Assembly (NCBI GenBank): GCA_028825265.1
Contig: JAPKAM010000008.1
Location: 1 to 52,462 of the forward strand
Length of the DNA: 52,462 nt
Reading direction: 5' to 3'
Source of the DNA: Planctomycetota bacterium
Lineage (GTDB): Bacteria; Planctomycetota; UBA8108; UBA1146
Part shown: positions 1,445 to 7,238 of the stretch, piece after piece
Layout: each line of letters begins with the position of its first letter
How positions within the stretch are numbered: the first letter of the stretch is position 1
Position numbers and translations under genes: made by a program
Notes under the pieces: generated by a model
Databases searched by the model: none
What the model was told of the DNA's origin: nothing
The model's input: only the letters and a program-made list of their open reading frames with translations

Positions 1445-2605
1445 TCAGGGAGAATCGGGCTTCCTGAGCCGGAACTGTGCGATGATCGCTTTTTCCCGCA
1501 CTTGATCTTCTCCCTCGCCCAGGCGAATTCGAAGAGTGCCCTTGGCCTGGGAGAGGGGATGGGTTTTCAGAACATCGATCCGCAACTTGTAATGATGCCC
1601 GGGGAGTACTTCGGTGATGGTGAGGCCAAAAAGCCCCTCGGGGGCATCGATGATCTGCGCCGAGAGGATCTCGATGGGGAGATCGTCACGAACCGAGCGG
1701 ACCTGCACCTCTTGCTTCACCTCACGTCGGACCGGCCCATCGAGGGGGGCGGTATGACGTCGATAGAACACGACATTGCCATTGGGAATCAGTTGGACCC
1801 GATCTTGGTGTATGACCACCACCGGCACCGGAATCTGCAACTCTTTCCCTTCGTCGACCTGGACAAATAACTCCAGGTCATCTCGCAGGCTTCCCATCGT
1901 CTCGGATGGACCTGCATGGAGGGTGAGGCGCCAGCCCTTCTCGAGCGGGTCGATCGACACCACCGAAAAGGAGCCATTCCTGGAGCGGGCGCGGGTCACC
2001 TGTAGAGGAATCTCGGTGGCGGGCAGAATTGTGGTGGTGAGATTCTTCGATTCGAAGGAGAGCCCCTCCAGTTTCAGCACCTTTTTTTCAAACTGGAGTA
2101 ACGGATCGACGAGCCCAGTCATCCACAACTGGACCTCGGGAGACTCCGGGTCATTGGTTTTGACCAGCGCATTCTTGCGTGGCCGACCGCCGCTGAAGTC
2201 GGTGGTGTCGACTTGCAATTCGATGATGCCGACCGCGCCCACCTCGATCACCTGGTCAAAGCGAGTCGAGGTACAGCCACAGGTGGAAGTGACCTTGAGG
2301 ATTCTGAGTGGTGCCTGGCCATGATTCTCGACCTGAAAGGAGTGCTTGACCAAGGCTCCCTGGAGCACCTTCCCCCAGTCGTGTTCCGTCACGCCGAGGT
2401 GAATCACCGGAGCCGGGCCGATCGGAAGAGGGGCGGGTGGGTCCTGCTGCTGAGCAGCGGTCGGGGACCACAGCAGGAGCAAGAGGATGGAGACGCTCCA
2501 GATCGAGTGACGAGATCTCGATCTGCCGCCGATCGGGACTCGATTTGCGGTAGAGGAGGCGCATTCCGGCTGGATCGGAGGGGCAAGATCGGCTCTGGAA
2601 GACAT
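1445..2605 (-). CDS. DUF1573-domain exported protein, Cys form (CGC motif intact)
   Basis: ORF 1445..2806; likely Met at 2605 followed by a hydrophobic segment (SVSILLLLLWSPTAAQ). Motif 'LRILKVTSTCGCTSTRFDQVIEVG...VDTTDFSGGRPRKNALVKTNDPESPEVQLWMTG'. Confidence 0.85.
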   Translation of the reverse strand: MSSRADLAPPIQPECASSTANRVPIGGRSRSRHSIWSVSILLLLLWSPTAAQQQDPPAPLPIGPAPVIHLGVTEHDWGKVLQGALVKHSFQVENHGQAPLRILKVTSTCGCTSTRFDQVIEVGAVGIIELQVDTTDFSGGRPRKNALVKTNDPESPEVQLWMTGLVDPLLQFEKKVLKLEGLSFESKNLTTTILPATEIPLQVTRARSRNGSFSVVSIDPLEKGWRLTLHAGPSETMGSLRDDLELFVQVDEGKELQIPVPVVVIHQDRVQLIPNGNVVFYRRHTAPLDGPVRREVKQEVQVRSVRDDLPIEILSAQIIDAPEGLFGLTITEVLPGHHYKLRIDVLKTHPLSQAKGTLRIRLGEGEDQVREKAIIAQFRLRKPDSP

Positions 2606-2824
2606 GTTCGGAAAACTCCTGATTCCCCTCGAAGAGTGGCATTTGACGAGGAAACTCGATGCTAGGAGTGCAGCGGTGAATACGCAACCCCTGATTGAAT
2701 TGGAGGTATCTGGAACCAATATCTGCAGCAGACCGTTGTGGAGGAAGTTGCACTGAAGTGTATTTGGCGATATTTTGGCAAGTAGTGCGATCGCAGTGCG
2801 ATTCACGGGCCCGAAGGGAGACCA

Positions 2825-3820
2825 ATGTTAAAGAGAATCATGACTCGTAGTGGGGGGCTGGCGATCGCCATCCTCTTGCTTGCGAGTATCCAAGTTGAGG
2901 CAGGTTCTGAGGTGGGGGATACAGCTCCGGCCTTGAACGCAGGGGGTTGGATCAACATCGATGCCAACACCTCTTGGGATTCCCTTCAGGGGAAGTTGAT
3001 CCTGATCGAGAAATGGGCCACTTGGTGAGGACCTTGCAAGGGCCAGATTCCGCACTTGAACCAATTCCACAAGGAGTTCAAGGATCGCGGCCTGGTCGTC
3101 ATCGGGGTCACCGATGAACCGGAAAGCAAGGCGAAACCCTACATCGATCGTAACAAGATGCTGTATCCCATCGCCTACGGTGGTGGGGCCAGCGGGTACA
3201 AGACTCGCGGGATTCCTCACTCCTGGTTAGTGGGTCCGGGCGGAAAGATCGTCTGGAAGGGCCATCCCGGAGGACTCAACGCGTCCATCATCGAGAAACA
3301 CATCGAAGGTGCCCGCGTCGGTCCGAAGATCAGCCTTCCCCCGCAACTGGTGAAGTCCGAGAAGTACCTCAAGGCCGGTCAGTTTGGTCGGGCCTACACC
3401 GATCTGGAGAAGCAGGCGGGTCGGGCCAAGGATCCAGAAATCGAGAAGGCGGCTCGTGACGCGATGAAAAAGATCGCTGAGTTTGCGTCCGTTGAACTGG
3501 CCCGAGTGGCCCAGTTCAAGAAAGAGCAGAAGTACTCGGCGGGCTTGCAGGCACTCCAGCGTGGTTCCGTCTCCTTCAAGGGAATGGCGATTGCCAAGGA
3601 GTTCACCAAGGAACTGAAGGCGTGGAAGAAGGATAAGTCCATCCAGGCGGAGATGGCTGGAGGCCAGTTACTCGTCGATGCCCAGGATCTGGTCAAACGA
3701 GGCAAGTACGAAAAAGCGGCCAAGATCTATGCGACCCTGGTCAAAAGCAAGAAGTACGCCGGTTCGTCAGCCCAGAAGGAAGCGGAAATTCGCCTCCAGG
3801 AGATCAAGAAGTACCTCTAG
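2825..3820 (+). CDS. Exported TlpA/thioredoxin-like protein, candidate selenoprotein (in-frame UGA at 3026-3028, UGPC motif)
   Basis: ORF 2825..3028 'MLKRIMTRSGGLAIAILLLASIQVEAGSEVGDTAPALNAGGW...LQGKLILIEKWATW*' continues in the same frame as 'GPCKGQIPHLNQFHKEFKDRGLVVIGVTDEPESK...GIPHSWLVGPGGKIVWKGHPGG', the classical TlpA/Trx fold with WCGPC replaced by W-UGA-GPC. Confidence 0.9.
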
Positions 3821-3850: not shown

Positions 3851-3862
3851 CTCAACATTGAA

Positions 3863-3896
3863 AGCAGCCCCGCAGGTCACGACCTGCGGGGCTGCT
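3863..3896. terminator. Hairpin between convergent genes, likely bidirectional terminator
   Basis: AGCAGCCCCGCAGGTC-AC-GACCTGCGGGGCTGCT inverted repeat between stops at 3820 (+) and 3928 (-). Confidence 0.75.
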
Positions 3897-3927
3897 CTCA
3901 TGATGACCGATGTACTGGAGGAGAGTC

Positions 3928-4920
3928 TCAGGAACTCACGCGGTCGATCAGGTCGACCACGCGGCTCGAGTATCCCCATTCATTGTCGTACCAGGAGAGG
4001 ACTTTGGCGGAGTGAGTTCCGATGGTCGTCGTCAATTGCGAGTCGAAGATCGATGAATGGGGGTTTCCGATGATGTCAGAGGACACCACTGGGTCGGTGC
4101 AGTACTGGAGTACCCCTCGCATCGGACCCTCGGCTGCCTTCTGCATCGCCGAGTTGATTTCTGCGACGGTGACCGGGTTCTCGAAGGTGGCCACGAGATC
4201 GACGATCGAACCATCGATCACCGGCACACGCATCGCCATACCGTCGAGCTTTCCCTCCAACTGGGGGAGCACTTTACCCACCGCACGGGCCGCCCCTGTC
4301 GAGGTGGGAATTACGTTCTCACCGGCAGCACGACTTCGACGAAGATCCTGGTGATACCAGTCCGCCAGACTCTGATCATTGGTATAGGCGTGAACCGTGG
4401 TCATCACTCCACGGATCAGACCAAACGTATCGTCCAGCACCTTGGCCATCGGGGCCAGGCAGTTGGTCGTGCAGGAGGCATTCGAGATGATTTGGTGTTC
4501 CGGTTCTAGAATCTCGTCGTTGACTCCCAGTACCACTAACGCATCGATGGCGTCCTTGGGAGGGACGGTCAAGATGACCTTTCTTGCACCTGCGTCGATG
4601 TGCATCTTGCACTCCTGACGCGAGCGGAATCGTCCGGTGGACTCGACGACCACATCGACTCCGAGGTCTTTCCATGGTAGTTGAGCCGGATCTTTTTCCG
4701 CCAGCATCTGGCAGCGCTGGCGTCCTGCAGAGAGGACTCCAGATTCGAGGGTGACCGGTTCAGGAAAGGGCCCCATCACCGAATCGTAGCGCAGCAAGTA
4801 GGCCAGAGATTCGGGATCGGAGATGTCATTGATGGCAACGACATCGATGTCTTCACGACCGGCTGCGATTCTAAAGACACTTCTTCCGATGCGCCCGAAT
4901 CCATTGATGGCAATCTTCAT
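3928..4920 (-). CDS. gap: Glyceraldehyde-3-phosphate dehydrogenase, type I, catalytic
   Basis: MKIAINGFGRIGR..., IISNASCTTNCLAPMAKVL, TTVHAYTNDQ, MRVPV, SWYDNEWGYSSRVVDL. Confidence 0.95.
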   Translation of the reverse strand: MKIAINGFGRIGRSVFRIAAGREDIDVVAINDISDPESLAYLLRYDSVMGPFPEPVTLESGVLSAGRQRCQMLAEKDPAQLPWKDLGVDVVVESTGRFRSRQECKMHIDAGARKVILTVPPKDAIDALVVLGVNDEILEPEHQIISNASCTTNCLAPMAKVLDDTFGLIRGVMTTVHAYTNDQSLADWYHQDLRRSRAAGENVIPTSTGAARAVGKVLPQLEGKLDGMAMRVPVIDGSIVDLVATFENPVTVAEINSAMQKAAEGPMRGVLQYCTDPVVSSDIIGNPHSSIFDSQLTTTIGTHSAKVLSWYDNEWGYSSRVVDLIDRVSS

Positions 4921-5951
4921 GAATCTCTCCTTTCGCCCTCGACAGCACTTCTGGATCCGATGCGAGCGGCAAGTTCGACGATCCTGTGGGAGATTCCGCC
5001 GCCCTGCTCGTACCAGCCGAGGACCTTGAGCAACACGCCATCGGTGACCAGGGTTGCGAGGCTATCGAAGACACAGGAGGAAGCGTTGCCTCCGATGTCG
5101 CTGGAGACGATCGGTTGATCGGTGTAGGAGAGATAGCCCTTGTGAATGCTGGCGGCTGCGCTGCGGAACACCTCGTTGACCTCGGCGGCTTCCACGGGTC
5201 TTTTCATCTGCACTGTCAGATCGGTGCAGGAGACGCCAGGAACAGGTACGTTCAACTTCATCCCCTTGAACTTCCCCCGCAGGTGAGGGAATAACTGCTC
5301 AATCGCCTCGTCGGTCCAGGTGGTCTGGGGGACGATGTTCTGCATCGCTGCGCGGGATCTTCGTAGATCTCCCCGAGCGGGAACATCGGTAAGACTCTGG
5401 TCGGCAGTGTATGCGTGTACCGAGGTGAAGGAGCCCTCTTCCACTCCGAAGGCATCGTCGAGAACCTTGACCATTAGCGCAGTGGCATTGGCGGTCGATG
5501 ATCCGCACGAGATGATCCGGTTCGATCGATCGACTTCGGAGGAGGTGACCCCCTGGATGTGCAGGTGGTCGATATCATCGGTCGGTGGAGTCGAAAGGAT
5601 GACTCGATCCGCACCCTGATCGAGATGTTTCTGCAGTTCGTGGCGTGCTCGAAACTTGCCTGTGGCTTCAACCACGACATCGACGCCATGTTCGTACCAG
5701 GGGATTTCGCCCGGTTCTCGGTGATGCAGCACCTGGATCTGTTTGCCACCGGCATAGATGGAATCTTCGAGGATCCGGATCGGTTCCTCAAAGGGGCCCC
5801 GCAGGGAATCGAATCTGAGCAAGTATTCCATCGCGTGGGTTTCCGCCAACTCGTTAATGGCGACGATCTCGATGTCCTTGCGGCCATACACCGCTCGAAA
5901 CACATTTCGACCGATTCGACCGAATCCCATCAGTCCAACTCGAACACTCAT
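4917..5951 (-). CDS. GAPDH-like protein lacking the catalytic Cys (probable pseudoenzyme or altered function)
   Basis: MSVRVGLMGFGRIGRNVFRAV... but RIISCGSSTANATALMVKVL in place of SNASCTTNC; stop overlaps the gap start codon (ATGA). Confidence 0.85.
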   Translation of the reverse strand: MSVRVGLMGFGRIGRNVFRAVYGRKDIEIVAINELAETHAMEYLLRFDSLRGPFEEPIRILEDSIYAGGKQIQVLHHREPGEIPWYEHGVDVVVEATGKFRARHELQKHLDQGADRVILSTPPTDDIDHLHIQGVTSSEVDRSNRIISCGSSTANATALMVKVLDDAFGVEEGSFTSVHAYTADQSLTDVPARGDLRRSRAAMQNIVPQTTWTDEAIEQLFPHLRGKFKGMKLNVPVPGVSCTDLTVQMKRPVEAAEVNEVFRSAAASIHKGYLSYTDQPIVSSDIGGNASSCVFDSLATLVTDGVLLKVLGWYEQGGGISHRIVELAARIGSRSAVEGERRDS

Positions 5952-6113: not shown

Positions 6114-7238
6114 GTGACCGTGAATCGAATCTTGGCGACCTACAGGGTCGCGGGTGATCGACTGCAATCTGCCGCCCTTGCCAGGGAAATGGCGGTCGAA
6201 TTGACGGTCGAGGTCCCCGAGTCCTTGATCGATCGGTATCCCAGAATAGCGTCAGAAATCGTCGCCGAAGTGCGGCATGTCGAGGAACTGGCACCCGGTA
6301 TTCAGCAGGTGACGCTGGCGCTGAACGGAGACCTGGCCCGGTCCAATTTGAATCAACTGCTCAACCTGTTGCTGGGAAACTGTTCGATGATGACCTCGGT
6401 CCAACTCACTCGCCTGGAACTGCCGGATGAAGTTCTGGGTCGGTATTCGGGCCCGAGGCACAGTATCGAGGGCGTTCGCAAGTTGACCGGGGTGGTCGAC
6501 CGGCCGCTGGTGGCGACGGCACTGAAACCGAGGGGGGCGCCGCTTTCAGACCTGGTGAATATCTGTAGAGAGTTCACCATCGGGGGTGGGGATCTGATCA
6601 AGGATGATCACAATCTGATCGATGACGATCTCGATCAATTTCGCGATCGGGTCGAGCGCTGCACCGCCGCCATCCGTGAGGAACAGGGGGATCGACATCG
6701 ACTCTACCTGGTCAATCTGATCGCCCCCTCCGAGCAACTGGATGCCCGGATGGAGATCGCCCTCGAAGCGGGAGCCGATGGAGCTCTGCTGGCACCGTGG
6801 GTGATCGGACTCGATCGAGTGAGAGAACTGACCGGACGCTGGCCTGCGGTCTATCTGGGACATCCCTCGATGAGCGGAGTTCTCACCAGCGGCTCTGGCA
6901 TCGCCGCGCCGATTGTTCACGGAACGTTGGCGCGGTTGGCTGGACTGGATGGCTCGGTGTTCGTCAATAGCGGTGGTCGCTTCCCGCTGACCCGACCGCA
7001 GGGAAGAGAAATCGCTGAGGCGTTACGGTGTCCGCTCGCTGGCGTGGCTCGTGGCTGGGCGGTTCCAGCAGGGGGCATGCGGCCCGAGGGCCTTCCCGAG
7101 TTGGTCGAGGATTTCGGCCCCGAGACGATGCTGCTGATGGGCGGCGCAATCCTGGTATCTGAACTGGGAATCGCAGCCGAGACTGCTCGGATCCGCCAAC
7201 TTCTTCGACAACAATTTTCGAGTCATCTGAAGGAATGA
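6114..7238 (+). CDS. RuBisCO-like protein (form IV)
   Basis: GVVDRPLVATALKPRGAPLSDL, GGGDLIKDDHNLIDDD, VYLGHPSMSGV, VFVNSGGRFPLTRPQG, AVPAGGMRP, LLMGGAIL. RuBisCO large-subunit layout without the loop-6 Lys. Confidence 0.88.
   Translation: MTVNRILATYRVAGDRLQSAALAREMAVELTVEVPESLIDRYPRIASEIVAEVRHVEELAPGIQQVTLALNGDLARSNLNQLLNLLLGNCSMMTSVQLTRLELPDEVLGRYSGPRHSIEGVRKLTGVVDRPLVATALKPRGAPLSDLVNICREFTIGGGDLIKDDHNLIDDDLDQFRDRVERCTAAIREEQGDRHRLYLVNLIAPSEQLDARMEIALEAGADGALLAPWVIGLDRVRELTGRWPAVYLGHPSMSGVLTSGSGIAAPIVHGTLARLAGLDGSVFVNSGGRFPLTRPQGREIAEALRCPLAGVARGWAVPAGGMRPEGLPELVEDFGPETMLLMGGAILVSELGIAAETARIRQLLRQQFSSHLKE

Follow-up and report, generated by a model that had tools for sequence, protein, structure and literature searches.

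TlpA/thiol-disulfide isomerase-like proteins with a UxxC motif (cd02966) and Prx-like thiol:disulfide oxidoreductases with a UxxC motif (PF00578) are listed as predicted selenoprotein families (PMC13188914, Table 1). According to the bSECIS rules, the apical loop of the hairpin lies 16–37 nt after the UGA codon and carries G[G/U] in its first positions; some putative bacterial SECIS elements misfit this model (PMC13188914).

The locus described here lies in a window of 52,462 nt, the whole stretch of DNA that was analysed (contig JAPKAM010000008.1 of the Planctomycetota assembly GCA_028825265.1), and contains a gene for a predicted TlpA-like UxxC selenoprotein. Such a protein is of an already known kind; the surprise is the placement of its putative SECIS. 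With the cd02966 and PF00578 UxxC families it shares the TlpA-like thioredoxin fold and Sec as the first residue of UxxC, but it has an extra helical C-terminal domain and another SECIS placement. Bacillus ResA and DsbE (CcmG) are alike in fold and active-site context (ResA 4nmu, 1st9; DsbE-like 3gl3), whereas the window protein has Sec in place of Cys and a C-terminal extension. As in the canonical bSECIS of E. coli fdhF, a hairpin with a small G[G/U] loop and a stem of 4 or more bp lies in the coding region; however, its loop is found at 77 nt rather than at 16–37 nt, and a second conserved hairpin occupies the gap.

None of the NCBIfam selenoprotein models reaches its cut-off on the window protein. 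NF041054 (WAxxUGC_long) matches the ResA-like domain weakly (34.7 versus a cut-off of 300 bits; above cut-off in 0/80 relatives) and NF041382 (VPGUxxT type 1) matches a related C-terminal region weakly (18.7 versus 350 bits); both have other Sec motifs. No report of a displaced or bipartite bacterial SECIS was found in the open-access literature, which is not proof of absence.

Methods

Positions around the Sec codon were numbered with the U of the UGA (window 3026) as position 0. The class set consisted of 30 genomes, in 22 of which the gene was covered together with its active site. The bSECIS thresholds applied were an upper stem of 4–16 bp, an MFE of at most −7.5 kcal/mol and a UGA-to-loop distance of 16–37 nt. 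The AlphaFold model was built with 24 family members. A covariance model of the two-hairpin element was searched in 395 planctomycete genomes, which gave additional matches outside the class.

Results

Gene and protein: Re-reading of the gene confirmed the preliminary description of an in-frame TGA at the first catalytic Cys (WATW-U-GPC). From its ATG start the frame reads MLKRIMTRSGG...EKWATW*GPCKGQIPHLN..., with this one in-frame TGA and 263 further open codons before the stop (Table 1). The split into two open reading frames given earlier was reproduced for the downstream piece (254 aa from TTG 3056), but the upstream piece from ATG to TGA has 67 aa, not 69.

Table 1. Features of the selenoprotein locus in window coordinates (offsets from the U of the UGA in brackets).
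Feature	Position	Strand	Basis or remark
TlpA/ResA-like exported Sec protein gene (predicted)	2825..3820	+	331 aa via UGA, TAG end; Pfam, AlphaFold, fold matches
Probable signal peptide, approx. residues 1–26	2825..2902	+	by eye; pLDDT low at residues 1–25
UGA, very likely Sec; residue 68, first position of UGPC	3026..3028	+	TGA kept in orthologues and phylum homologues, Cys elsewhere
Putative structured spacer, long hairpin of about 57 nt	3041..3097 (+15..+71)	+	codon-shuffle z about −3 in class orthologues, covariation
Helices of the long hairpin	3041–3046/3092–3097, 3050–3053/3087–3090, 3055–3061/3076–3082	+	class consensus
Proposed displaced SECIS hairpin UCAUCGG[GGUCA]CCGAUGA	3099..3117 (+73..+91)	+	7/7 pairs in 22/22 orthologues, compensatory changes
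C-terminal helical (TPR-like) domain, about residues 176–331	3350..3817	+	AlphaFold secondary structure; TPR matches
Exported DUF1573 protein with CGC motif, divergent	1445..2806	−	Pfam; synteny within the family
Long inverted repeat between convergent genes, probable terminator	3859..3898	.	sequence; palindrome in Rfam search

The TlpA-like fold claimed at the outset was borne out by the Pfam domains AhpC-TSA, Redoxin and Thioredoxin, all of which exceed the cut-off for the Sec protein, and by the AlphaFold model (mean pLDDT 88.5), in which a domain matching ResA/DsbE folds is followed by about eight helices. The hallmarks of a TlpA/ResA-like oxidoreductase (thioredoxin fold, WxxxCxxC-type motif and cis-Pro) were found by Pfam and fold search, with RGIPHS present; TPR_14/TPR_19 matches to the C-terminal domain occur in a few family members. 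A hydrophobic stretch and an AxA-like site, assessed by eye, point to the signal peptide, and export was assessed in the same way. The product would be an exported TlpA/ResA-like thiol-disulfide oxidoreductase, in which Sec presumably attacks in the UGPC redox motif.

The order DUF1573 – selenoprotein – GAPDH pair holds within the family, and the DUF1573 protein is a possible redox partner of the Sec protein. Downstream, at 3928–5951, lies the tandem GAPDH gene pair, whose place beside the selenoprotein gene is kept within the family; at 6114–7238 there is a RuBisCO large-chain-like protein, then a NamZ exo-N-acetylmuramidase. Among the neighbours examined, no cytochrome c maturation genes were seen.

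Reading of the UGA: TGA stands at the Sec codon in 22/22 class orthologues (88–35 % identity), each of them without any other in-frame stop. The homologue comparison suggested in the preliminary description gave Cys or TGA codons at this site throughout the phylum (down to about 30 % identity), with TGA in dozens of planctomycete homologues and Cys at the aligned site of a Riflebacteria homologue (L024, WATWCPPC). In homologues with a TAG, this was simply the terminal stop, or the site was a Cys codon. A TlpA-like gene with UGA (WASW-U-HYC) was also noticed at 962–1411 of L025, a record labelled Peptostreptococcaceae.

A pseudogene, a sequencing error or two separate short genes, as annotation-style ORFs that divide the gene would have it, can hardly be entertained: separately deposited, independently assembled MAGs agree on the TGA from genus to phylum, and frame and domain are kept on both sides of it. 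Because the TGA is found in all 22 orthologues from independent MAGs, sequencing error and decay are excluded, and the two-gene reading is refuted by the same conservation.

tRNA-Sec (70 bits, anticodon TCA), selA (527 bits) and selD are clustered on one contig of the genome (C47). SelD, itself read through a UGA, starts with ...NYASCAGUAAKL..., and its CAG-U-AAK site is the classical Sec position. Of the selABCD set proposed for checking, selA, selC and selD were thus present, but neither selB nor a SelB fragment was found in this approximately 90 % complete MAG, in which the best match was EF-Tu-like; same-genus genomes carry a full 648-aa SelB. Since the 881-aa protein that adjoins selB in the genus is missing from this MAG too, the absence of selB is likely an assembly gap. 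In several planctomycete genomes (G040, G018, G047, G062, G064, G079) two or three SelB genes each score above the curated cut-off, which could relate to the two SECIS designs described below.

That UGA is reassigned genome-wide to Trp or Gly, without Sec, would be favoured by the open frame alone. This reading has next to no probability, as UGA is the stop of selD in the host genome and of the orthologous gene in L030 and L036–L038, and a UCA tRNA of Sec-type structure is present together with selA and selD; reassignment is refuted by UGA stops at these conserved gene ends. The UGA is very likely decoded as Sec, because it is conserved, other homologues have Cys, selA, selD and tRNA-Sec are clustered in the genome, and selB is present in same-genus genomes. 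The claim made at the start is further supported by the Sec-containing SelD and by the ordinary SECIS hairpins of further UGA genes.

At least four further UGA redox genes occur in the host genome, all with ordinary SECIS hairpins; their motifs are WATW-U-GPC with a TPR-like tail (L062 2621, C108), WGYS-U-GAC, WGDW-U-GPC and CAG-U-AAK of SelD (labels L062, L116, L118, L016). The hairpins read AAGGUGC[CGUGCC]GCACCUU at a spacing of 17 (C108), CGGGGACCU[GGUCG]AGGUCCUCG at 26 (SelD), GUGCGGA[GUC]UCCGCAC at about 17 (C200) and CACGAGC[GGUC]GCUCGUG at about 31 (C72).

Region directly after the UGA: A hairpin fitting the published bSECIS rules at 16–37 nt was found in 0/22 class orthologues. The bSECIS search proposed for 3026–3080 returned no qualifying hairpin, and that range would have misled, because the conserved candidate at 3099–3117 lies beyond 3080 and beyond 16–37 nt. 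By fold and codon shuffles, the first 42–60 nt past the UGA are no more stable than shuffled sequences. It is very improbable that Sec is inserted by way of a weak hairpin just after the UGA (for example CAAG-GC/GC-CUUG, about 3037–3058), with the downstream structures serving translation speed or mRNA stability: such a fold exists in the window sequence, but its stability equals that of shuffles (z 0.51; mean z about 0), orthologues do not conserve it, it falls outside the bSECIS criteria, and the downstream element tracks UGA, not Cys. A short SECIS directly after the UGA was rejected for this gene on the shuffles and the bSECIS rules. Pairing of the UGA with about +70..+79, as in the single-sequence MFE structure, was left aside, because this pairing is in competition with the 3′ hairpin and the UGA lies within the ribosome while it is being decoded.

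Two downstream hairpins: The conserved structure consists of the long hairpin and, after one base, the 3′ hairpin of 7 bp with the 5-nt loop GGUCA (3106–3110), which starts 77 nt after the UGA. With flanking bases the 3′ hairpin folds at −10.8 kcal/mol in the window, within the stem and energy thresholds; the bare hairpin in some relatives gives −6.8 to −8.6 kcal/mol. Its xGUxx loop is invariant in 22/22 class orthologues, fits the G[G/U] rule (PMC13188914) and agrees with the SECIS loops of the host's other UGA genes (CGUGCC, GGUCG, GUC, GGUC); the distal loop reads GGUCA in the window and CGUGA, AGUUA, AGUCU and others elsewhere. Rfam has no family at the element; its matches were to the downstream palindrome.

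Over 19 distinct class sequences the 3′ hairpin is 100 % paired, with both-sided changes that were matched by 0/500 shuffles. The codon pairs of its stem (ATC/GAT, ATT/AAT, GTT/AAC, GTC/GGC, GTG/CGC) are always complementary, and the changes include amino-acid swaps (D, N, G, R). The hairpins overlap coding sequence, and 7/7 pairing given the amino acids has a probability of 0.006–0.6 per class sequence; because coding constraint gives part of the pairing, single sequences are weak evidence, and the strength lies in many lineages and controls. For the whole element 91 % of cells are paired, versus 25–45 % for slid versions, and 8 pairs are changed on both sides. The stretch +12..+93 has a codon-shuffle z of −2.4 to −5.2 in all 22 orthologues, which are not mutually independent, and a downstream control has a mean of +0.3. 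Among close orthologues, synonymous differences drop to 0.05–0.2 at codons +16 to +33, versus about 0.45 elsewhere. For the stretch +12..+93, z is near 0 in most paralogues of the class, both Cys and UGA ones, and the two-hairpin element was not found in the Cys paralogues. Comparison of sequences establishes that both hairpins are conserved and linked to the UGA. Other class genes matched by the RNA model had Cys at the site or a UGA followed by an ordinary SECIS.

Proposed mechanism: We consider it likely that the exported Sec oxidoreductase is made by SelB recruitment through the hairpin at 3099–3117, the hairpin at 3041–3097 folding the distance of 77 nt to about 20 nt. The UGA would be decoded by SelA, SelD, tRNA-Sec and SelB. 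While the UGA occupies the A site, the long hairpin would have its base close to the mRNA entry, where the start of a canonical SECIS is expected, and the 3′ hairpin, directly behind it, would recruit SelB by its loop. At 77 nt this hairpin lies outside the canonical spacing, and the tight UGA-to-loop distance of 16–37 nt expected by the literature (PMC13188914) counts against it. Subtraction of +15..+71 (57 nt) leaves an effective spacing of 20 nt, a geometry on paper; one canonical element of the host genome has a similar spacing, 17 nt.

That the long hairpin at 3041–3097 is itself the SelB element, as a large-loop SECIS that the 3′ hairpin assists, for example by stacking or pausing, seems improbable to us. 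The long hairpin is conserved and covarying, and canonical SECIS hairpins with the loop AGUU at a spacing of 34 lie inside its region in L047, L155, L189 and L208; however, its apex in the class (offsets 36–49) is variable and without a conserved G or GU, and it is the 3′ hairpin whose stem is perfect and whose loop has the invariant GU. By inference, SelB would bind the 3′ hairpin, and the 5′ hairpin would act as a spacer.

Distribution in Planctomycetota: Outside the class, many matches of the covariance model are UGA genes in which both hairpins recur with different sequence and the loop again starts at 77 nt (distal hairpins UCGUCGC[CGUGA]GCGACGA, UCGUUGC[CGUGA]GCAACGA and UCGUUGG[CGUGU]CCAACGA). 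The pair at +77 was found in 21 extra planctomycete UGA loci, of which 17 were picked by the RNA model, a choice that favours structure, and 4 by protein similarity alone. Among protein-similarity-selected loci outside the class, the distal hairpin is present in 4/50 UGA versus 1/41 Cys loci, and over all 132 loci in 43/91 versus 1/41. The frequency of a 7-bp xGUxx hairpin in flanking DNA is about 1e-4 per position, and element-less homologues of the same peptide motif pair only 2–6 of 7.

The spacer alone (+12..+72, 3′ hairpin left out) has a mean z of −2.96 for class loci and −2.76 for the remaining distal loci, whereas non-distal UGA loci average −0.56 and Cys loci −0.22 (Mann–Whitney p 4e-9 against Cys loci, uncorrected for phylogeny). 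In the four distal loci picked by protein similarity, z ranges from −2.2 to −4.5. Since the spacer is stable in distal loci and near shuffles in the others, both hairpins go together. The sole Cys locus that keeps both (L226/L244, G074 C5; FRTWCGAC) groups with distal UGA genes, and L226 is probably a recent Sec-to-Cys change with a fossil SECIS.

Outside the class, most UGA homologues have a canonical short SECIS. By the criteria applied, neither type was seen in a small number of UGA homologues, L053 and L185 among them, which may hold further designs or hairpins missed by the filter. One gene, L152 (G119), has a canonical hairpin at 17, AAGUGC[CGUGCC]GCACUU, plus a distal one at 77. RNAalifold recovered no structure from the phylum set as a whole, since this set combines two SECIS designs.

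In the tree the class forms one clade, and at least 7 label changes are required for the distal loci elsewhere (few columns); it therefore seems that the two SECIS designs were repeatedly exchanged or lost. With a little less assurance than for the window gene itself, we think that Planctomycetota use a bipartite SECIS beside the ordinary one, that its spacer of about 57 nt lets a SelB hairpin act at 77 nt, and that lineages have switched between the designs.

Conclusion

The distance of 16–37 nt is given as the bacterial rule in reviews and is built into search tools. If the proposed arrangement is true, spatial and not linear distance would matter for bacterial Sec insertion, and the geometry of SelB reach to the ribosomal A site would become directly testable. 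It also suggests a design for recombinant selenoproteins in which the SECIS is set apart from the Sec codon. If the spacer hairpin bridges the 77 nt, such genes would escape current searches, and part of the prokaryotic selenoproteome has probably been missed or split in annotation.
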